In this document: positions 188 to 17,596 of the stretch, piece after piece
Layout of the letters: each line of letters opens with the position of its first letter
Position numbering within the stretch: position 1 is the stretch's first letter
Assembly (NCBI GenBank): GCA_016186945.1
Contig: JACPKR010000023.1
Coordinates: 1 to 18,748, forward strand
Source: Deltaproteobacteria bacterium
Lineage (GTDB): Bacteria > Bdellovibrionota_B > Oligoflexia > Oligoflexales > Bog-1112
DNA length: 18,748 bases
Reading direction: 5' to 3'
The notes under the pieces: model-generated
What the model was told of the DNA's origin: nothing
Database searches by the model: none
The model's input: the letters and a program-made list of their open reading frames with translations, nothing else
Program-made: the position numbers and the translations under genes

Positions 188-1222
188 ATGCTTTACACCG
201 ATGTCATGATAGAAAGCCTCGCGTACGAATTGCCGGAAATGCGGAAATCCTCTGCAGATCTGGAAGAGCAACTTAAACCCCTGTATAACGCTCTCAGCTT
301 GTCCCCAGGTCTGCTGGAACTCATGACGGGGGTGAAGGAACGACGCCTCTGGCCTTCCCATCTGCCTCCTTCCCATTTGGCTGCAAGTGTTGCCGGACGC
401 GCCCTGCAGCAGTCTGGTATCGCTACCCGTGATATATCGCTTCTGATCTACACCGGCGTGTGCCGAGATTTTATCGAACCTGCGACGGCGCACATCATAC
501 ACCACCGGCTTAGCTTAGGGCGGGAGTGCCTAACGTTTGACCTTTCAAATGCGTGCGTAGGGTTCCTAAACGGTATGCTCATCGCGGCCAATATGATCGA
601 AAACGGGCAAGTGGAAAAAGCACTTATCGTGTCGGCAGAAAGCGCCAGCCCACTTTATGAAAAAACCATCGCAAGGCTTAACGATGACCCGACAGAACGA
701 GCATATCGCTCCTCTCTCGCTAGCCTGACGCTTGGTTCAGCTTCGGCAGCCGTAGTGTTGTCGAAAGCAAAGGGCGCTTACCCTCGTCTCTTGGGCGGTA
801 TTTCACGCACGGCAAGCGAACATCACACACTCTGTCAGGGCAGTGGTGACTTTCGCAATCCCTTCATGCGAACGGATTCCGTCAATCTTATGAAGGAAGG
901 ACTGAAACTTGCCAAACTTGCGTGGCAGGACTTCCTGGGGGAACTCAAGTGGGGAACTTCCACACCAGCTTGCATTTTGACTCACCAGGTTAGCCAATCT
1001 CATCATGCGAAATTTTTTGAAACCCTTGAACTCGACCCAAGTAGAGGGCAAAACGATCTGCCCTATCTAGGAAACACGGGAAGCGTCGCTGCCCCCCTCT
1101 CCTTAGCCCTTAGCGCAGAAGCAGGCCGTCTGCACGCAGGCGACAAAATCGCAATGTTGGGCATAGGGTCAGGACTCACCACACTGATGCTAGGACTGCA
1201 ATGGAACTACCCCCACAGCTAA
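188..1222 (+). CDS. oleA: OleA, thiolase-fold acyl-CoA condensing enzyme
   Basis: OleA performs the head-to-head, non-decarboxylative Claisen condensation of two fatty acyl-CoAs to a 2-alkyl-3-ketoacid, the first step of long-chain olefin synthesis in the cytoplasm. The protein has 344 residues, usual for the family, and the FabH-like thiolase fold. Its nucleophile is Cys123 in SNACVGF. The other active-site residues are His266 in THQVSQ and Asn296 in LGNTGS. Glu97 in CRDFIEPAT matches the glutamate that OleA contributes across the dimer interface as catalytic base. The end motif LGIGSGL is also typical. The start at 188 has the purine run GGGAAGAG upstream; ATG 206 is an alternative. It is the first gene of oleABCD and overlaps oleB by 22 bases. 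It is distinguished from FabH by this active-site set and by the neighbours. Confidence 0.95.
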   Translation: MLYTDVMIESLAYELPEMRKSSADLEEQLKPLYNALSLSPGLLELMTGVKERRLWPSHLPPSHLAASVAGRALQQSGIATRDISLLIYTGVCRDFIEPATAHIIHHRLSLGRECLTFDLSNACVGFLNGMLIAANMIENGQVEKALIVSAESASPLYEKTIARLNDDPTERAYRSSLASLTLGSASAAVVLSKAKGAYPRLLGGISRTASEHHTLCQGSGDFRNPFMRTDSVNLMKEGLKLAKLAWQDFLGELKWGTSTPACILTHQVSQSHHAKFFETLELDPSRGQNDLPYLGNTGSVAAPLSLALSAEAGRLHAGDKIAMLGIGSGLTTLMLGLQWNYPHS

Positions 1223-2076
1223 GAAAACATTTTCCCTTCTCCCCCCATTTTTTCTCTCTTAAAAAGAGTGGGCCTTCCGACTATCGGCTTCACTATATTG
1301 ACGAAGGACGGGGCGACCCCCTAGTGTGCCTGCACGGGAACCCCACCTGGAGCTTTTTCTATCGAAACTTGATCGGTGAATTGAAAGACCAGCACCGTGT
1401 TCTTGCGCTTGACCATTTGGGCTGCGGTCTTTCCGATCGTCCGGAAGATTTTTCGTACCGACTCAGCGATCACATCGAAAACCTCACGAACTTGATCGAG
1501 CACCTTGGTCTGGAGAACATTACCCTTGTCGTGCATGATTGGGGGGGAGCGATTGGCTTAGGCTGGGCGGTCCAAAACGCAGCAAAAGTCAAACGACTGA
1601 TCATTATGAACACAGCAGCTTTCCTTTCCCAGGATATCCCCAAAAGGATCGCATTACTTAAATTCTCCCCGCTTAGGGACTTACTCATACGCAGACTAAA
1701 CCTTTTTTGCCTGGGCGCAAACTTGATGGCATCTCACAGAGGTTTATCAAGGGATCTTGCCGACGCTTACCTGTTTCCTTATCGCTCTTATAGAGATCGC
1801 ATAGCAGTTTCGTGCTTTGTAAAAGATATTCCCCTCAAGCCCACCCACCCGACCTACGACGTTTTGAAAAATATAGAGGAGAAACTACCCTCCCTGAAAG
1901 TTCCCACGCTACTCCTTTGGGGAGCGAAGGACTTCTGTTTTCACACAGGTTTCTTGGACAGGTGGAAGTACGTATTTCCTCATGCAGAGAGCCTTGTGAT
2001 GGAAGAGGCCGGGCATTACCTCCTAGAGGATGAGCCGGTGCTAACCCTTGAACGCATCAGAAAGTTTTTGTCATGA
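1201..2076 (+). CDS. oleB: OleB, beta-lactone decarboxylase (alpha/beta hydrolase)
   Basis: OleB removes CO2 from the cis-beta-lactone made by OleC, giving the cis-olefin. It belongs to the haloalkane-dehalogenase branch of the alpha/beta hydrolases, and without the operon it would be annotated as a dehalogenase. Visible motifs are HGNPTWSF (residues 45-52, with the Asn/Trp pair of the family), the nucleophile elbow VVHDWGGA with Asp113, the acid Asp244 in WGAKD, and His272 in AGHYLLED. The length of 291 residues is normal. The ATG at 1201 lies inside the end of oleA and has AGGA five bases upstream. The gene overlaps oleC by four bases (ATGA), so translation is probably coupled. In some bacteria oleB and oleC are fused; here they are separate. 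Confidence 0.94.
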   Translation: MELPPQLRKHFPFSPHFFSLKKSGPSDYRLHYIDEGRGDPLVCLHGNPTWSFFYRNLIGELKDQHRVLALDHLGCGLSDRPEDFSYRLSDHIENLTNLIEHLGLENITLVVHDWGGAIGLGWAVQNAAKVKRLIIMNTAAFLSQDIPKRIALLKFSPLRDLLIRRLNLFCLGANLMASHRGLSRDLADAYLFPYRSYRDRIAVSCFVKDIPLKPTHPTYDVLKNIEEKLPSLKVPTLLLWGAKDFCFHTGFLDRWKYVFPHAESLVMEEAGHYLLEDEPVLTLERIRKFLS

Positions 2077-3743
2077 ACATAACGAGTCTGATTCACGACA
2101 ATGCGCGCCGTTTTCCCGACAGAAAGGCGATTATCGAAGACAAGACAGGTGCCTTTCTCAGTTTTCGTCAATTTTCTGAACAAGCCAATCAGGTCGCAGC
2201 AAATTTGCGATCCCATGGGGTGGGAAAAGGTTGCAAAGTAGCCTTTTTCGTAAAACCGTCCCTCGCCTTTCACACGACAATCTTCGCCCTGTTTCAGATC
2301 GGAGCCGTCCCTGTCTTCATTGACCCGGGGGTGGGGTGGAAGCAGCTCCTGGCAGCCGTCGGACAAGCAGCTCCAGAAGTCCTCATTGCGGAGCCATTGG
2401 TTCTTTTTGTTCGCAAGTTGTTTCGCAGTGTATTTGCCAGCGTAAAACTGGCTGTCAGTCCGAGACAAGTCGTGGGGGAGCGACGGTTCCCTCGCCCCCC
2501 CACCCCCCCCTCTCCCCTTTTCATTTTAGAGGACGATGTGGCAGCAATTATCTTCACCTCAGGTGCCACAGGGGCACCGAAGGGAGTCGTTTACACAAAC
2601 GGAAACTTCCAAACACAAGTTAAACTTCTTGCAAAGATACTTCCGACCGGAGAAGGGGACACAGACATTTCTTGTTTCCCCCTTTTCTCTCTCTTTTCCC
2701 TCGCACTGGGGATGAGCAGCGTCATTCCAGACATGAACCCGAGCAAACCTGCTCAAGTCGACGCTGGGAAAATTGTGAGAGCCATTCGACAGCACAACGC
2801 TGCACAGGCAACAGGTTCTTCAGCTATTTGGGAGCGTGTCGCTGACTTCTGCTTGGAGAAGGATCTGCAACTACCAAGTCTTCGAGGGATTCTAATGTTT
2901 GGCGCTCCTGTTTCCGTCTTGCTGCACCAGAAATTGAAGAAAGTTATGCCAGCCGGTTCCACTTACACCCCCTACGGAGCAACCGAGTGCCTTCCCGTCT
3001 CATGGATAAGCGGGGAGGAAATTCTGCACGACTGTCAGAACCTCACCTTGCAAGGCAAAGGCACCTGTGTAGGCACACCCTTTCCGGAAACCGACGTACT
3101 CATTATCAAAGAGACAGACGGACCCATCCCTGAGATCTCCCAGGTGGACGAATGTGCGCCTTTTTCCATCGGAGAAATTCTGGTGTCAGGGAAACAGACC
3201 ACCAGGGAGTATTTCCAGAAAAGAGACGCGACGGAACTCGCGAAAATCAAAGACCCCTCAGGACGCATCTGGCACCGGATGGGTGACCTTGGGTATAAAG
3301 ACGAACGCGGGCGCATCTGGTTCTGCGGGCGTAAAGTTCACAAGTTCGAGACCGAGGACGGCCCCGTTTTCCCCATCATGGGCGAGGCTATTTTCAATCA
3401 AGATCCCGAGGTGAAAAGGACCGCTATCGTCGGTCTCTTGAATGGCACCACGCCTTGTTTGGTCGTGGAAAGAAAAGACGGACGGACAAAACTTTCAAAA
3501 AAAGAACGAATGAAATTTCATTCTGAGTTACTTGCCTTGGGAGCAAGGCACAAATTGACAGCAAAGATCCAATCCATTGTATTTCACAATAGCTTTCCGG
3601 TAGACTACCGTCATAACATAAAAATAGACAGAATTGCATTGCGAGATCAGATTATATTATCTGAGAAAAGGAATTTGTGGAGAGGACCTTTTTTGAAAAA
3701 AAGTTCCCCTCCACACCTCCCCCCAAAAAACTTTAGATATTGA
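2073..3743 (+). CDS. oleC: OleC, beta-lactone synthetase (AMP-ligase fold)
   Basis: OleC uses ATP to close the 2-alkyl-3-hydroxyacid made by OleA and OleD to a beta-lactone. It has the acyl-adenylate ligase fold: phosphate-binding loop TSGATGAPKGV (162-172), YGATE (301-305), GDLGY (404-408), and the C-terminal HNIKIDR with Lys517 in the place of the family lysine. There are 556 residues. Two segments do not look native. Residues 134-150, rich in proline and arginine, are encoded by a C-rich repeat also present between genes at 4819 and 14404. About the last 23 to 29 residues and the stop are encoded by a second repeat found inverted at 10709-10782. The motifs on both sides of the internal insert are intact, so the enzyme is probably functional. 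Confidence 0.93.
   Translation: MNITSLIHDNARRFPDRKAIIEDKTGAFLSFRQFSEQANQVAANLRSHGVGKGCKVAFFVKPSLAFHTTIFALFQIGAVPVFIDPGVGWKQLLAAVGQAAPEVLIAEPLVLFVRKLFRSVFASVKLAVSPRQVVGERRFPRPPTPPSPLFILEDDVAAIIFTSGATGAPKGVVYTNGNFQTQVKLLAKILPTGEGDTDISCFPLFSLFSLALGMSSVIPDMNPSKPAQVDAGKIVRAIRQHNAAQATGSSAIWERVADFCLEKDLQLPSLRGILMFGAPVSVLLHQKLKKVMPAGSTYTPYGATECLPVSWISGEEILHDCQNLTLQGKGTCVGTPFPETDVLIIKETDGPIPEISQVDECAPFSIGEILVSGKQTTREYFQKRDATELAKIKDPSGRIWHRMGDLGYKDERGRIWFCGRKVHKFETEDGPVFPIMGEAIFNQDPEVKRTAIVGLLNGTTPCLVVERKDGRTKLSKKERMKFHSELLALGARHKLTAKIQSIVFHNSFPVDYRHNIKIDRIALRDQIILSEKRNLWRGPFLKKSSPPHLPPKNFRY
2474..2521. repeat. C-rich hairpin repeat inside oleC
   Basis: These 48 bases match 4819-4866 at 45 of 48 positions without gaps, and a more diverged copy lies at 14404-14452. 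Each begins GGGGAGCGA, forms a stem with TCGCCCCCC (one bulged A in two copies), and continues as a C-rich stretch ending in TCTCCC and a T run. In oleC the element is in frame, contributes no stop, and encodes Val134 to Phe150. The opposite strand holds four long G runs that could form a G-quadruplex. Confidence 0.85.
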
Positions 3744-3751
3744 ATACTATA
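3653..3751. repeat. MITE-like element, copy 1, spanning the oleC 3' end
   Basis: The core at 3671-3744 matches the reverse complement of 10709-10782 at 73 of 74 positions. Its ends read TATATT and ACTATA, near-inverted and TA-rich, resembling the TATAGT/ACTATA ends of copy 2. The core folds into a long hairpin with arms 3676-3694 and 3696-3715 (about 17 of 19 pairs). It encodes the OleC tail and stop (TGA at 3741-3743) and ends just before the oleD ribosome binding site. Outer borders are less certain than the core. Confidence 0.75.
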
Positions 3752-3754
3752 GCA

Positions 3755-3762
3755 AGAGAGGA
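3755..3762 (+). promoter_or_regulatory. Ribosome binding site that fixes the oleD start
   Basis: AGAGAGGA ends seven bases before the ATG at 3770. A longer reading from TTG 3740 would start inside the repeat and has no such site, so the ATG is preferred. Confidence 0.75.
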
Positions 3763-3769
3763 TTCTGAG

Positions 3770-4756
3770 ATGGAGAAAGTTTTAGTCACAGGCGGTGGAG
3801 GATTCCTAGGAACAGAGATCTGTAAACAACTCAAGGACAAGGGTTACGACGTCACAAGCTACTCCCGGAAATCTTACCCCCACCTTAGCAAGATGGGGAT
3901 TCGATGCATGCAAGGTTCAGTAACGTCGAGGGAAGATTTGGGCTATGCGATGAAAGGGAAAGACGCCGTCATTCATACAGCAGCCTTGGCAGGGGTGTGG
4001 GGACGACATAAGGACTTCTACGACGCTAATGTCGTGGGGACACAGAACGTTTTGGACGTTATGGAGACACTGGGCATCCCGCGCTTGGTCTACACAAGTT
4101 CTCCTAGTGTTGTCTTTGCGGGGAAGGATATTACCGGCCAAAGTGAAGAGGAACTTTCTTATCCAACTCAGTCGATGGGAAGCTATCCTGACACAAAAGT
4201 GGAAGCAGAAAAACGAGTCCTGGCAACGCATGGAAAAAAGAACTTTGTCAGCGTAGCAATTCGCCCCCATCATATTCTTGGATCTGGTGACCCTCACTTC
4301 CTCCCTCGCATCAAGGAGAAGGCGAAGCGGGGGATGCTTAAGAAAGTTGGGGATCTGAATAACATGATCGACGTTACTTACGTCGGCAATGCCGCGCTTG
4401 CACATATTCTGGCATTGGAAGCTCTGACACCGAGATCCCCACTGGGAGGCAAAGCGTATTTTGTGGCACAGGAGCGTCCTGTGAACCTGTGGGAATTCGT
4501 CGATACGATGATCGACAAGTTTGGCTTGCCCGCGATCAAGGGACGAATCTCCTTTCAGACAGCATGGATCCTTGGCATAACCTTGGAGACGGTTTACAGG
4601 ACTCTAGGAATTTATAAGAAAGAGCCACCTATGACACGGCTCATCGCGTTCAGTACGGCACGGTCTCACTATTTTAGCCATGCGGCTGCCAAACGAGATT
4701 TTGGTTATATACCTCGGGTGTCGTTAGAAGAATGCATGCAGAAAATAATGCGCTAG
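3770..4756 (+). CDS. oleD: OleD, NADPH-dependent 2-alkyl-3-ketoacid reductase
   Basis: OleD reduces the OleA product 2-alkyl-3-ketoalkanoate to the hydroxyacid used by OleC. It is an extended short-chain dehydrogenase of the NAD-dependent epimerase/3-beta-HSD type. The nucleotide-binding loop TGGGGFLG is at residues 7-14 and the catalytic YxxxK is Tyr139/Lys143 in SYPDTK, preceded by the serine motif YTSSPS (around 108-113). The length is 328 residues. The start at 3770 is chosen because of AGAGAGGA upstream and because the Rossmann strand then begins at residue 3. The gap of 26 bases to oleC is occupied by the end of a repeat element, unlike the overlapping oleA-B-C junctions. Translation here therefore relies on its own ribosome binding site. 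It ends convergent to lysR. Confidence 0.94.
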   Translation: MEKVLVTGGGGFLGTEICKQLKDKGYDVTSYSRKSYPHLSKMGIRCMQGSVTSREDLGYAMKGKDAVIHTAALAGVWGRHKDFYDANVVGTQNVLDVMETLGIPRLVYTSSPSVVFAGKDITGQSEEELSYPTQSMGSYPDTKVEAEKRVLATHGKKNFVSVAIRPHHILGSGDPHFLPRIKEKAKRGMLKKVGDLNNMIDVTYVGNAALAHILALEALTPRSPLGGKAYFVAQERPVNLWEFVDTMIDKFGLPAIKGRISFQTAWILGITLETVYRTLGIYKKEPPMTRLIAFSTARSHYFSHAAAKRDFGYIPRVSLEECMQKIMR

Positions 4757-4758
4757 CC

Positions 4759-4898
4759 GCTTGTGGCAAGGAGGTGGTCTGGAGGAAACTGCGCAGCTGG
4801 TTCCTCCAGGACTTCCTTGGGGGAGCGACGGTTCCCTCGCCCCCCCAAACCCCCCTCTCCCTTTTTGCCAAAAGCCAAACCACCTTTTTGCCACAAGC
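4759..4898. repeat. 140-bp palindrome-bounded element between oleD and lysR
   Basis: The element is bounded by 24-base inverted ends (4759-4782 and 4875-4898, 21 of 24 matching) that start GCTTGTGGCAAGGAGG. Inside are the imperfect palindrome around GGAGGAAACTGCGCAGC and GGTTCCTCC, and the 48-base C-rich hairpin repeat (4819-4866). A shorter relative without the C-rich part lies at 16511-16610. It fills the space between two convergent genes, three bases after the oleD stop and four before the lysR stop. It could act as a transcription terminator in both directions. No transposase is encoded. Confidence 0.8.
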
Positions 4899-10633: not shown

Positions 10634-10813
10634 TATAGTATTGAAGATAGTCAATTTGGGGACAAACTTTTTGAAAAAAGTTCTTTCCCCAACCCCCTTT
10701 TCAAAAACTTCAATATCTAGAGTTTTTTGGGGGGAGGTGTGGAGGGGAACTTTTTTTCAAAAAAGGTCCTCTCCACAAATTCTTTCTCCCAAATTCTATT
10801 TCTCAAAGACTAT
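10634..10813. repeat. MITE-like element, copy 2, between pbp1 and the htrA-like gene
   Basis: The ends are TATAGT and ACTATA, continued by loosely matching inverted sequence. This layout resembles miniature elements of the IS630/Tc1-mariner type that use a TA target. The segment 10709-10782 is the inverted 74-base core shared with the oleC end. Compared with copy 1, 68 extra bases (10643-10710) follow TATAGTATT; they contain a hairpin bounded by GGGG and CCCC (10658-10690). The element occupies most of the 249-base space between two divergent genes, so promoters for both must lie in or beside it. I saw no convincing sigma-70 site. Confidence 0.7.
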
Positions 10814-11932: not shown

Positions 11933-12066
11933 CCTCCACTGTCATCCCGCGGCCTCCACTGTCATCCCGCGGCCTCCACTGTCATCCCGCGGCCTCCACT
12001 GTCATCCCGCGGCCTCCACTGTCATCCCGCGGCCTCCACTGTCATCCCGCGGCTTGACCGCGGGAT
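11933..12066. repeat. 20-base tandem array ending in a full palindrome
   Basis: The unit GTCATCCCGCGGCCTCCACT is repeated exactly five times from 11941 to 12040 and preceded by its last eight bases at 11933. At 12041 a sixth unit runs into the complete palindrome with arms 12044-12052 and 12058-12066 (loop CTTGA). Each unit contains only the left half of the palindrome, so the array looks like slippage expansion of a broken copy. It begins directly after the htrA-like stop and the final palindrome enters the putP coding end. The long stem could stop transcription from both convergent genes, but there is no T run. Confidence 0.9.
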
Positions 12067-13445: not shown

Positions 13446-13742
13446 GGGAACCTCAGAAAAATAATCCAGCCGACTCTAGGGGTATTTTGAAATAATTCAA
13501 TGAGTCGCTAGTAAAAAAAGAAATGAACGTTAATGGATTCACAATTATTTTTCAAATTATAAACAAAGCTAAAACAAATTATCCTTATTTTAGGCATCTT
13601 ATAAAAACTCCTTAGACTACGCCAATTTAGCCAGAAATAGGGGTCTAAGGGTGCGACAATTTTACGTATTGTTCGGAAGAGATTTTTTCTCGCATGATGG
13701 CCTTAAGAAAATCTTAAGTTTCCAAAATTAATGGAGGACATC
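13446..13742. other. AT-rich divergent intergenic region
   Basis: These 297 bases separate putP from the DUF4360-like gene and are much richer in A and T than the genes. On the minus strand TATAAT occurs at 13561-13556, but without a good -35 partner. CTTAAG occurs twice (around 13700) as a small palindrome pair just upstream of the plus-strand gene. I see no gene or RNA here; it presumably holds both promoters. Confidence 0.5.
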
Positions 13743-14372
13743 ATGAAACTCGTAGCTTTCGCAGCCGGACTTTTATTAACAGGTTCGGCATTCGCCGCTG
13801 ATGTGATCGAATGGAACTTCAACGGACAGGCAAATGCGCTTGGCTCCGGTTGCCGCAAAGATGCAGGACGTCCTGGTGACACCGACTTCATCAGTGCTGG
13901 TAACGATGTGTCAGTTCTTTTCTCTCGTCTTGGGGTCAGCCTGACAGGAGACGCGGGAGGTGCCAAAGTTGCCTCGAAAACGTGCCGCTTTGCGATCCCC
14001 ACGAAAGTAAGAGCCGGCTACTACATTGGCCGACTCCAGCAAACGATCACCTACGGTTATGAGAGGAACTCAGGGACATCAGGTAAAGTGTCCGCTGCCA
14101 CAACATTCTACGGCCAAACTGCCGGAAATCTTCTCAGGAATATTCCCACACCTGGACTTGACCAGTGGTCCGTTCCCTTCGCAGAAGTCCGCCACACAAG
14201 CCTGTGGAGGGTCAACCCTTCTTGGTGCCTGCGAAGCGACTACAAGGGAAATTTCATGGCAAATCTTGCAGTTAACGGTTACCGAGAGTCCACCAAGCGT
14301 GATATCGTGATCCAGATCAACGGGCATGATATCCGCTTCGATGCAGTCGGTTTCCCTCTGCTTTGCCCATAA
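13743..14372 (+). CDS. Secreted DUF4360-like protein, first of a pair
   Basis: A signal peptide (residues 1-18, ending GSAFA) precedes a mature protein of about 190 residues. The pattern GSGC near the start, a beta-rich middle with KTCRFAIPTKVRAGYYIG, and a last cysteine close to the C-terminus matches how I remember DUF4360, a family of small secreted proteins of unknown function. Four cysteines in the mature part suggest disulfides. I start at ATG 13743, because GGAGG lies five bases upstream and the signal peptide then begins correctly; ATG 13731 lies in that ribosome binding site. The next gene shares the GSGCR motif and layout. The family call is from memory of its pattern, not a search. 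Confidence 0.7.
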   Translation: MKLVAFAAGLLLTGSAFAADVIEWNFNGQANALGSGCRKDAGRPGDTDFISAGNDVSVLFSRLGVSLTGDAGGAKVASKTCRFAIPTKVRAGYYIGRLQQTITYGYERNSGTSGKVSAATTFYGQTAGNLLRNIPTPGLDQWSVPFAEVRHTSLWRVNPSWCLRSDYKGNFMANLAVNGYRESTKRDIVIQINGHDIRFDAVGFPLLCP

Positions 14373-14403
14373 TCTAGGGGGTTCCTGCGGATGGCTTTTT
14401 CGA

Positions 14404-14452
14404 GGGGAGCGACAATTCTCTCGCCCCCCTCGCGCTCCCCCTCTCCCTTTTT
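14404..14452. repeat. C-rich hairpin repeat between the DUF4360-like genes
   Basis: This is a diverged copy of the elements at 2474 and 4819: GGGGAGCGA pairs with TCGCCCCCC, followed by a C-rich stretch, CTCTCCC and TTTTT. The hairpin with T run may weaken read-through between the two genes. Its end lies six bases before the ribosome binding site of the second gene. Confidence 0.75.
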
Positions 14453-14469
14453 GTTTGTAGGAGTTGTCG

Positions 14470-15117
14470 ATGAAAGTTGTAGCTGTCACGATCCTCTTGA
14501 GTTTATCCACTCAAACCTACGCAGTTACCCCGACCAAACCAGAAATAAAAGACTGGTTCGCCCTAGGCTCCGGCTGCCGCGGGCGCGAAGGCGGCATCGG
14601 CGACATCCGCATGACGATGACCCCCGACGGGCAAAACCCCGACAGGTTGTCAGTCAGCTTTTCGATGGGTTCCTACAAACTCAGTGGAAAAGACCCGGTG
14701 AACGCAGATACACCGACCTTCGCAAGGGAATGCTCACTGCGCTTTGCTCTCTATCCTCCCCCCTTCAAGAGAGTGAAGAACATAGAAGTTTCTACAGCTT
14801 TTCAAGTGGACAAAGAAAAAGGAGCGACAGCCGAACTCCACAGTCGACTCATGACTGCAACCGGAACCCTCAAGTCGTGGGACCAGGTCCTGGGCAAGGA
14901 GCAAAGTACGAAAGGTCAGACGCTCTCCATGAACCTTGCCCCCGATGAGAACGGCAAACGCATCCTTAGCGACCTTGCCTGCGGGGAAGCAAAAGTCCTC
15001 GGTGCTGACTTCACCTTCCTAAACCGTCGGGACTCTTTCAAAGAACAAGTCGAGATGAAACACGACTTCTCGAATAAAGTGGAATTCACGATTCAATTGG
15101 AAAGCTGCGGGAAGTGA
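14470..15117 (+). CDS. Secreted DUF4360-like protein, second of a pair
   Basis: A signal peptide (residues 1-18, ending TQTYA) precedes a mature region of about 197 residues. It begins WFALGSGCRGREG, like the neighbour upstream, and ends in a cysteine (LESCGK). The cysteines at GSGC, REC, LAC and ESC have the same order as in the first protein. The sequences are otherwise very diverged, so an old duplication is likely. ATG 14470 follows TAGGAG by six bases; the TTG at 14464 is a poorer choice. Function is unknown. The gene is 97 bases after its neighbour and separated from it by a hairpin repeat. Confidence 0.7.
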   Translation: MKVVAVTILLSLSTQTYAVTPTKPEIKDWFALGSGCRGREGGIGDIRMTMTPDGQNPDRLSVSFSMGSYKLSGKDPVNADTPTFARECSLRFALYPPPFKRVKNIEVSTAFQVDKEKGATAELHSRLMTATGTLKSWDQVLGKEQSTKGQTLSMNLAPDENGKRILSDLACGEAKVLGADFTFLNRRDSFKEQVEMKHDFSNKVEFTIQLESCGK

Positions 15118-15132
15118 CTTACATAAGACCAC

Positions 15133-15828
15133 TTACCTGACTCGGATGACTTTAGACTCTGCCTCTATCACCCGTCCGGCAATGTGAAGACGATATTCTT
15201 CGGGGGTGACTAGGAATAGCGTGTCGCAATCCCAGTCAATCATGTGACGGAGGAACGTTTGAAGGGGCAAGGTCCCCTCTCTTGACGAGAAACTCAATGA
15301 CTCAAGTTGCGAGAACACAAAAAGCGGGTTCCTGTGTGCTATTTTCAATTCATGTATATGTTCCAAGAGAAATTCCAGAAAAGCGTCATGCTCCATTTTT
15401 AGTTTCTGCGCTTCCCTTGCAATTTCTGTCAGCTCAATTTCGAGGATCGTACGGCCTTTGAGTTCCGACGGGAGGTCTGCCGTATCTTGGACAACTTTTT
15501 CCGCTAAAACTTGCGGATATTGCAAGGTGTCCAGCCCTCTTGGGCCAACGAGGAAAATATTGAGGGTCTTAACGTTGAGATGCCTTCGGTCTTCTTTAAA
15601 AGCTGCTAACAATTCTTTCAACACTTTGCTTGGGTATTCGACCTCTGATGAAAGATCCCTTTTAGCAAAAGCTTTAACGTTCTCAGAAAAACCTTTGCTG
15701 CGCGCAAGTTCATTGAAATTGTACACATAACTGTCTTCGCTAAGCGTGTCGAAATAAACCTCACGTCCGCACGCAAGAGCTAAGAAGCCTCCGATAAAAA
15801 TTGGGCAGACAAGTTTAGTGAAACGCAT
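15133..15828 (-). CDS. Probable lipoprotein with a degenerate ClpB-type AAA+ module
   Basis: The first 20 residues form a lipoprotein-like signal peptide ending FLALAC, with Cys20 as probable lipidation site (Ala at -3 is less usual than Leu). The rest follows the first AAA+ module of ClpA/ClpB in order: NFNELARSKGF for the pre-module DLTELARQGK segment, LVGPRGLDT for the Walker A LIGEPGVGKT, LPSELKGRTILEIEL for VPEGLKGKRLLSLDM, LFVFSQLESL for the Walker B ILFIDELHTL, and LVTPEEYRLHI for ATTLDEYRKYI. The Walker A lysine and the Walker B Asp-Glu are absent, so ATP hydrolysis is not expected. The alignment is by eye. ATG 15828 lies inside the end of the upstream beta-barrel gene (14-base overlap), indicating coupled synthesis. 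A longer start would bury the signal peptide. Confidence 0.75.
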   Translation of the reverse strand: MRFTKLVCPIFIGGFLALACGREVYFDTLSEDSYVYNFNELARSKGFSENVKAFAKRDLSSEVEYPSKVLKELLAAFKEDRRHLNVKTLNIFLVGPRGLDTLQYPQVLAEKVVQDTADLPSELKGRTILEIELTEIAREAQKLKMEHDAFLEFLLEHIHELKIAHRNPLFVFSQLESLSFSSREGTLPLQTFLRHMIDWDCDTLFLVTPEEYRLHIAGRVIEAESKVIRVR

Positions 15829-16432
15829 AACCAATTCCCACACTGAAGTTATATTCGAGATCTGGCTTAACGAAAGGCCTGATATTGTCGAAAGAACGTG
15901 CAAGCCCTCCTTTTACAGAGAAGGCGAAGTCCGTTACGAAAACCCTCTCCCAACCCAAGTCCAAGCCGATACGTGTGCGCAACCCTTTGCGGATGCTTTG
16001 AGATGATTCAGGGATCCACTGAACGACACGCCCCAGGTAAAGATTTGGCATTAAGAATATGTCCTGGTCCGTCATGCGTGTGACTTTCACCTTCAGTCCC
16101 AATCCTCCCCCGATTGTCTCGGTTTTGGGGACAAGGGAATCTTTCTTATGCCTTGTCTGATCCAAGACCAACTTGTCAGTCTCCATGGAGAAGAAGGGAA
16201 CCAAACTAAAACTAGAGGTGGATCCTAGGGGGGCGTCAAAATTGGCCTGGAAGCGGCCTGACACAAGAGGATCGATTTCGAGGATGACTTTGTTCGCCCG
16301 TTTCAGAGCACGAAGAGTGTCGGCCCTTACGACTAAGGTGTTCCTTCTGGCATACGCCAGCTGACTGGGGGTGCCCATCATAAAAGCTGAGAAAATTCCT
16401 GTGAACACCATGATTCGGTAAAACGAAAACAT
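15815..16432 (-). CDS. Probable outer-membrane beta-barrel protein
   Basis: I do not recognise a family. A signal peptide (about residues 1-28, ending QLAYA) precedes some 177 residues. These hold alternating hydrophobic and polar stretches such as SFSLVPFFSM, GGGLGLKVKV, LRTRIGLDLGW and FAFSVKGGL. The end, NFSVGIGYAFH, is aromatic-rich as in outer-membrane barrels, although the very last residue is His rather than Phe. An eight-strand barrel would fit the size. ATG 16432 gives a proper signal peptide; TTG 16453 would add seven residues. The gene follows a good promoter and overlaps the pseudo-ATPase lipoprotein gene by 14 bases, so the two probably act together in the outer envelope. Confidence 0.65.
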   Translation of the reverse strand: MFSFYRIMVFTGIFSAFMMGTPSQLAYARRNTLVVRADTLRALKRANKVILEIDPLVSGRFQANFDAPLGSTSSFSLVPFFSMETDKLVLDQTRHKKDSLVPKTETIGGGLGLKVKVTRMTDQDIFLMPNLYLGRVVQWIPESSQSIRKGLRTRIGLDLGWERVFVTDFAFSVKGGLARSFDNIRPFVKPDLEYNFSVGIGYAFH

Positions 16433-16470: not shown

Positions 16471-16499
16471 AAAATAGGTGACGACCAGCTAAGTGTCAA
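16471..16499 (-). promoter_or_regulatory. Sigma-70 promoter for the barrel/lipoprotein pair
   Basis: Read on the minus strand, TTGACA (16499-16494) is separated by exactly 17 bases from TATTTT (16476-16471). The start codon at 16432 is about 38 bases from the -10 box. The repeat element starts about a dozen bases upstream of the -35 box. Confidence 0.6.
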
Positions 16500-16510
16500 G
16501 CCACTTCAAC

Positions 16511-16610
16511 GGCAAGGAGGTGGTTTGCAGGAGTGGCAAGGAGGTGGTTTGGAGGAAACTGCGCAGCTGGTTCCTCCAAGAAGTCCCTGTGTCAAACCAC
16601 CTCCTTGCCG
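16511..16610. repeat. Palindromic element, short form
   Basis: A perfect 17-base inverted repeat (16535-16551 and 16593-16609, GGCAAGGAGGTGGTTTG) encloses the imperfect palindrome from GGAGGAAACTGCGCAGC to GGTTCCTCC. A further direct copy of the left end lies at 16511-16527. It is the short relative of the element at 4759-4898 and lacks the C-rich 48-base part. Confidence 0.8.
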
Positions 16611-16867: not shown

Positions 16868-17596
16868 AGCAGTTTTGATCTGCATCAAGGAAGCCAATTC
16901 GCTGCGGAAGAGCTTAACAGTTATGTGAGCACTTACCTTCGTGAGGAAATCCAGGGCGAGGCGGCGACCCGCAACATAGAAGCATTTGCAGAATTTTTAG
17001 ACCTCATTGCCATGGCTAACGGACATGAGCTGAATTATGAGCGCCTGGCATCCGACTGCCAAGTCTCCACAAGCACGCTCAAAAATTACCTCCAAATCCT
17101 CGAAGACACGCTCCTTGGCTTCAAACTCCCTGGTTTTACAAAGACTAAAAAAAGAAAGGCCACTTCGCGTTCCAAACATTTCCTATTTGATATCGGCGTC
17201 GTAAACTGCCTCTGTCAAAGATCGCCAATTAGACCCAAGAGCGAGCTTTTTGGAAGTGCCTTCGAACACTTCATTATCCTGGAAATTAGGGCGTTTCTGA
17301 GTTACCGCAGACTCCAAAACTTCAAAATGACGTACTGGCGAAGCACCTCACAATATGAGGTCGACCTTATTGTTGGCGACCAATGGGCTATCGAGATCAA
17401 AGGAACCCATCTGGTTCAGGACCGACATCTCAAAGGATTAAGAGCGCTCAAAGAGGAAGGAATGGCCATGTCGTACTTTGTGGTCTCCCTGGACAACGCG
17501 GAAAGGCTCACAGACGACGAGATCCGCGTCCTGCCATGGAAAATTTTTCTGGAACATTTGTGGGCCGATCAACTGATTCAATCCCGCGCTGATTAA
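16868..17596 (+). pseudogene. C-terminal remnant of an AAA_14/DUF4143 ATPase
   Basis: Complete members have an N-terminal P-loop ATPase (AAA_14) and a C-terminal DUF4143 domain; they are common mobile or toxin-antitoxin-like genes of unclear role. Here only the C-terminal half is present. It begins in the middle of the linker (AEELNSYVSTYLREEIQ), continues through the winged-helix part (LASDCQVSTSTLKNYLQIL) and ends with the nuclease-like part FGSAFEHFIILEIRAF and VDLIVGDQWAIEIKG. The homologous frame extends upstream of the first usable start (GTG 16925) to a stop at 16865, and no Walker A sequence is seen before it. I therefore read it as truncated. The frame is otherwise open for 243 codons, so the loss may be recent, or a short product could still be made from GTG 16925. 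Confidence 0.75.

Follow-up and report, generated by a model that had tools for sequence, protein, structure and literature searches.

A putative exported pseudo-AAA+ protein with remote homology to the Clp D1 module in a member of the Oligoflexales

Introduction

The window, which is the whole 18,748-nucleotide stretch of DNA analysed here, encodes a protein of 231 residues that begins with a predicted export signal and whose body, as several sequence comparisons support well, descends remotely from the D1 module of the Clp ATPases. In this protein the residues by which Clp modules bind and hydrolyse ATP have been replaced. The explanation favoured here, on which our judgement is evenly balanced, is that the protein would be an envelope-anchored AAA+ core free of nucleotide that serves as a passive protein-binding or scaffold part, with the protein encoded upstream as its likeliest partner. 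The features on which this proposal is built are collected in Table 1.

Table 1. Positions of the pseudo-AAA+ gene, its parts, its upstream neighbour and the signal-bearing Clp ATPases of family f4.
Feature	Position	Strand	Basis
Pseudo-AAA+ exported protein, 231 aa	15133..15828	(-)	Open frame, native codon usage, Clp D1 homology
Predicted export signal, residues 1-20, MRFTKLVCPIFIGGFLALA-C20	15769..15828	(-)	Sequence; hydropathy 2.50
Low-confidence linker and helices, residues 21-65, including the ELAR segment of the original prediction	15634..15768	(-)	Mostly pLDDT <60 in both models
Alpha-beta-alpha core, residues 88-231, homologous to the Clp D1 large subdomain	15136..15567	(-)	
Degenerate Walker A, GPRGLDTL for GEPGVGKT	15523..15546	(-)	Alignment with ClpB D1
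Degenerate Walker B strand, LFVFSQ for LFIDE (D>S173, E>Q174)	15307..15324	(-)	Alignment
TPEEY segment at the place of the sensor-1 TTLDEY segment	15193..15207	(-)	Alignment
Two Arg finger positions, now A223 and E224	15157..15162	(-)	Alignment
Upstream gene, probable start ATG 16432, signal peptide and beta-strand-rich protein	15815..16432	(-)	Sequence
Possible promoter of the two-gene operon, TTGACA-17-TATTTT	16471..16499	(-)	Such sites in the region not above chance number
f4 Clp ATPase, genome G010, signal-like start MVKFLLGAILLSAVLPAQARW, 682-aa frame	L134:505-2550		
f4 Clp ATPase, genome G010, signal-like start VRFWVVVAMLLVADTVWC, then ankyrin repeats	L133:1017-4067		
f4 Clp ATPase, genome G019, signal-like start MRAIVVFVISWAAATSLLAKVPA, then ankyrin repeats	L099:1510-3627		
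f4 Clp ATPase, genome G019, signal-like start	L102:116-2497		

Reading frame and export signal

The gene lies on the minus strand and runs from an ATG at 15828 to a stop at 15133-15135, exactly where the original prediction had placed it. Its codon preference, 0.21 bits per codon, equals that of the neighbouring genes, and neither of the two remaining forward frames scores above about 0; the GC content (0.45) lies below that of most neighbours. The alignment of residues 21-65 to Clp is uncertain. The chain stops after the last core strand, so that lid, D2 and N-domain are absent from the protein, and a search for other Clp remnants (lid, D2) elsewhere in the window found none.

The N-terminus, MRFTKLVCPIFIGGFLALACGRE, is composed of a positive n-region (MRFTK), a 14-residue hydrophobic stretch and ALA-C. 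The signal reads MRFTKLVCPIFIGGFLALA-C-GRE, reaches a maximum 11-residue hydropathy of 2.50 and is of the Sec type, terminating in LALA-C. The features of a lipoprotein, namely a positive n-region, an h-region and a lipobox Cys (C20), are present, and ALA-C is both lipobox-like and a perfect signal-peptidase I AxA site. ALA-C20 is consistent with the broad PROSITE lipoprotein pattern; it falls outside the narrow lipobox consensus [LVI][ASTVI][GAS]C. Because of this departure and of the alternative AxA site, the designation lipoprotein is likely and not certain: of the lipoprotein-like signal first proposed, the export-type N-terminus stands, the lipobox being the weaker part, and predicted export is a firmer claim than predicted lipidation.

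Remote homology to the Clp D1 module

Single-sequence, profile and profile-profile tests all match the protein to Clp D1 in a constant register. It aligns to the D1 of ClpA, ClpB and ClpC in this one register over about 125 residues, at an identity of 18-27% (about 23%), and the significant matches are to D1 and not to D2, with segments that include LPSELKGRTILEIEL and TPEEYRLHI. With phmmer the best score was 22.8 bits, and none of 600 shuffles exceeded 9.8; when the scores for the eight top-scoring Clp proteins were added together, the total was 131 bits, with 37 as the highest value among 600 shuffles. A D1 profile built from ten Clp proteins scored 17.7 bits with the mature protein (20,000 shuffles, maximum 11.4; reversed sequence, -2.2), and hhalign matched the protein to D1 over 123 columns with a P value of 8e-6.

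Searches of genomes led to the same module. When whole genomes from this phylum were searched, all non-self matches at E <=0.005 were to ClpB D1 in the same register; the ClpB proteins of sister genomes scored 22-23 bits, with best E values of 8.9e-5 and 1.1e-4 per genome, and in a genome outside the phylum an 826-aa frame of Clp length was matched with E 5.3e-5. A six-frame search of the organism's own genome with the D1 profile ranked the protein 6th (E 0.0034, columns 58-180 of 212), with four Clp proteins and one further match ahead of it, and the matches weaker than it were shorter and mostly P-loop stretches. Among 177,635 PDB sequences, a ClpB D1 structure was the top phmmer match, a weak one with E 0.077, and searches of Pfam, NCBIfam, PHROGs and PADLOC gave no convincing match.

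The origin from a Clp-type D1 module, as originally proposed, is thus supported, with the phmmer and D1-profile scores above all shuffles. The segment-by-segment correspondence proposed with it holds over about 125 residues, TPEEY included, and the alignment of the ELAR segment is insecure. At the profile level, the D1 profile and hhalign support the relation, which neither Pfam nor the PDB search establishes.

Residues kept and lost

For the comparison of residues, the protein was aligned with 28 ClpB D1 modules. It keeps 19 of the 87 nearly invariant ClpB D1 columns, most of them glycines in turns or positions within helices and strands, and the catalytic positions are all changed. In Walker A, Lys has become T101 and Thr has become L102; together with D>S173 and E>Q174 in Walker B, this bears out the loss of the Walker A Lys and of both Walker B acids read earlier from the letters. 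The first sensor-1 Thr is lost, as are both Arg fingers (R>A223, R>E224) and the pore-loop YRG (RG>KM at 144-145), and the DPVIGR segment is missing. Since none of the catalytic features compared has been retained, the protein is, judged by its sequence, a descendant of the Clp ATPases and not a member by function.

Fold models

A model computed without an alignment was poor (pLDDT 48.5). By hand count, 45 of its 50 best VIA rows were AAA+ chains, at Z 5.7-6.7; such values by themselves prove little, a Z of about 6 being, for this model, within the range of common arrangements. When the 28 ClpB D1 rows were supplied, the greater part of the core had block pLDDT values of about 74-90, and the resulting model matched ClpA, ClpC, ClpB, p97 and NSF at Z 9-10 and Clp chains in Foldseek at E values near 1e-5 to 1e-4, in a comparison biased toward AAA+ by the ClpB rows themselves. 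With regard to the expected ClpB-like fold, both models are AAA+-like, one of them at low confidence and the other with that bias.

Upstream gene and genomic surroundings

The pseudo-AAA+ gene overlaps the gene upstream of it by 14 bp, and the two probably form one operon. The upstream protein has a signal peptide ending in AYA, an alternating beta-type sequence and a C-terminal YAFH, and these features suggest an outer-membrane-barrel-like protein. No match to it was found in Pfam, NCBIfam or PHROGs, and none of the 57 further genomes of the phylum yielded a convincing homologue of its gene. Downstream, and convergent with the operon, lie two tandem genes for small exported proteins (13731-14372 and 14464-15117), which have the motif LGSGCR in common and the first of which is weakly DUF4360-like (E 4e-4). 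Rfam and tRNA searches of the window found nothing.

Other features of the window were recorded on the way. Positions 16925-17596 encode the C-terminal DUF4143 part of an ATPase of the AAA_14-DUF4143 type (PADLOC candidate PDC-S01); the upstream sequence lacks the AAA half, and the ATPase looks truncated. Four consecutive genes at 188-4756 resemble, by sequence only, an OleA-OleB-OleC-OleD olefin (hydrocarbon) cluster. Several families of dispersed repeats lie between genes or at their ends (4763-4819, 16533-16589, 2473-2521, 4818-4866 and 14402-14450), a 91-nt repeat occurs as an inverted pair (3654-3744 with 10709-10799), and a 20-nt tandem repeat, CCTCCACTGTCATCCCGCGG, at 11933-12060 adjoins a copy of a palindromic element also present at 1-146.

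Distribution

No homologue of the pseudo-AAA+ protein was found in 57 other genomes of the phylum, and only ordinary Clp proteins matched it in the genome-contig, viral-contig and plasmid sets and in up to 383 whole genomes. The whole-genome search takes a heuristic first look, which in one run dropped a true ClpB match, and weak homologues may thus be missed. Short-frame Clp-like candidates in genomes of the family were discarded, since they turned out to be fragments at contig edges, sigma-54 activators or else an ordinary AAA ATPase. Because homologues are absent, selection on the features of the protein cannot be shown. A literature search over open-licence papers found no exported bacterial pseudo-AAA+ protein described, in agreement with the earlier statement that no family of this kind was known.

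Comparison with known systems

With the D1 of ClpB, ClpA and ClpC, the protein shares the homology of the large subdomain and the order of strands and helices, including the LPxxLKGR and EEY segments; unlike them, it has neither the Walker acids and Lys nor the Arg fingers, the pore-loop YRG, the lid, D2 and the N-domain, and it bears an export signal. The Torsin activators LAP1 and LULL1 would resemble it as membrane-anchored AAA+ folds without Walker motifs in a non-cytosolic compartment, the lumenal AAA+ fold of LAP1 having no Walker A and a changed Walker B (PMC4358337). However, LAP1 retains an Arg finger, proposed to activate Torsin, whereas the pseudo-AAA+ protein has lost both, and no sequence relation between it and LAP1 or LULL1 has been shown. 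With LAP1 as a precedent, a scaffold role in the envelope is possible by analogy. In the organism's own genome no exported AAA+ protein came to light that could be its partner; a lid search there recovered four Clp proteins whose N-termini, partly read, look ordinary.

Clp modules outside the cytosol are also found in human CLPB/SKD3 and, by prediction only, in ankyrin-Clp proteins of family f4, but both of these keep their Walker motifs and D2. In two f4 genomes, from the same order, four Clp-type ATPases with intact Walker motifs have N-terminal signal-like sequences (Table 1), followed by ankyrin repeats in three of the four; their appearance is that of exported proteins, with a host cell as a possible destination. 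For one of them (L133), the closest solved structures are those of bacterial ClpB and not of human CLPB. In this order, the original premise that Clp unfoldases work only in the cytoplasm may therefore fail. Descent of the pseudo-AAA+ protein from the f4 ankyrin-Clp proteins was tested and found no support, as it scores lower with them than with ClpB.

Discussion

Taken together, we infer that Sec exports the pseudo-AAA+ protein, that a lipid anchor most likely holds it, and that its body would be the alpha-beta-alpha core of a Clp D1 without nucleotide binding, hydrolysis, Arg fingers, pore loop or lid. The periplasm has no ATP pool, and for this reason a passive protein-binding or scaffold domain appears the most likely role. 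The barrel-like exported protein encoded directly upstream would be the likeliest partner, and translational coupling of the two genes is probable. A more specific version, advanced only tentatively, is that this may be the first bacterial envelope protein with a nucleotide-free Clp D1 core, a ligand-binding lipoprotein working with an outer-membrane protein in parallel to LAP1.

The alternative that survives best, still an unlikely one, is a decaying or newly captured fragment, in which a piece of ClpB D1 became joined to a signal sequence and now drifts without function. Such an origin would fit a gene found in a single genome only, with its catalytic residues all gone, its lid and D2 absent and its GC content low, but it accounts poorly for 231 codons kept open with native codon usage and for the overlapping upstream gene, whose product is likewise an exported protein; moreover, the helix-strand order and hydrophobic pattern, kept at about 23% identity, suggest long divergence under selection for the fold. 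It is considerably less probable that the N-terminus is an inner-membrane anchor, or that the protein is cytoplasmic and serves the Clp rings there as an adaptor or poisons them as a subunit: mixed rings are conceivable, given that the closest relatives are ordinary ClpB D1 modules and that export is predicted from sequence, but the short h-region is followed by ALA-C with no long transmembrane segment, the upstream gene product likewise has a signal peptide, and the interface Arg fingers and the lid are lost. Slightly less probable again is the convergence of an exported, unrelated alpha-beta protein on a Clp-like sequence, to which the unmatched library models, the PDB E value of only 0.077 and the 18-27% identity would lend themselves, but which has against it scores far above every shuffle, significant matches to D1 and not D2 in one register, the specific segments LPSELKGRTILEIEL and TPEEYRLHI, and an alignment-free model that is likewise AAA+-like.

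For the order as a whole, the intact and exported-looking Clp ATPases of family f4 raise the question of where such proteins would obtain ATP, for instance from a host cell. As for the nucleotide-free envelope core favoured here, if it is real and functional, it would represent a Clp motor domain stripped of its motor and reused outside the bacterial cytoplasm, as LAP1 is in eukaryotes.
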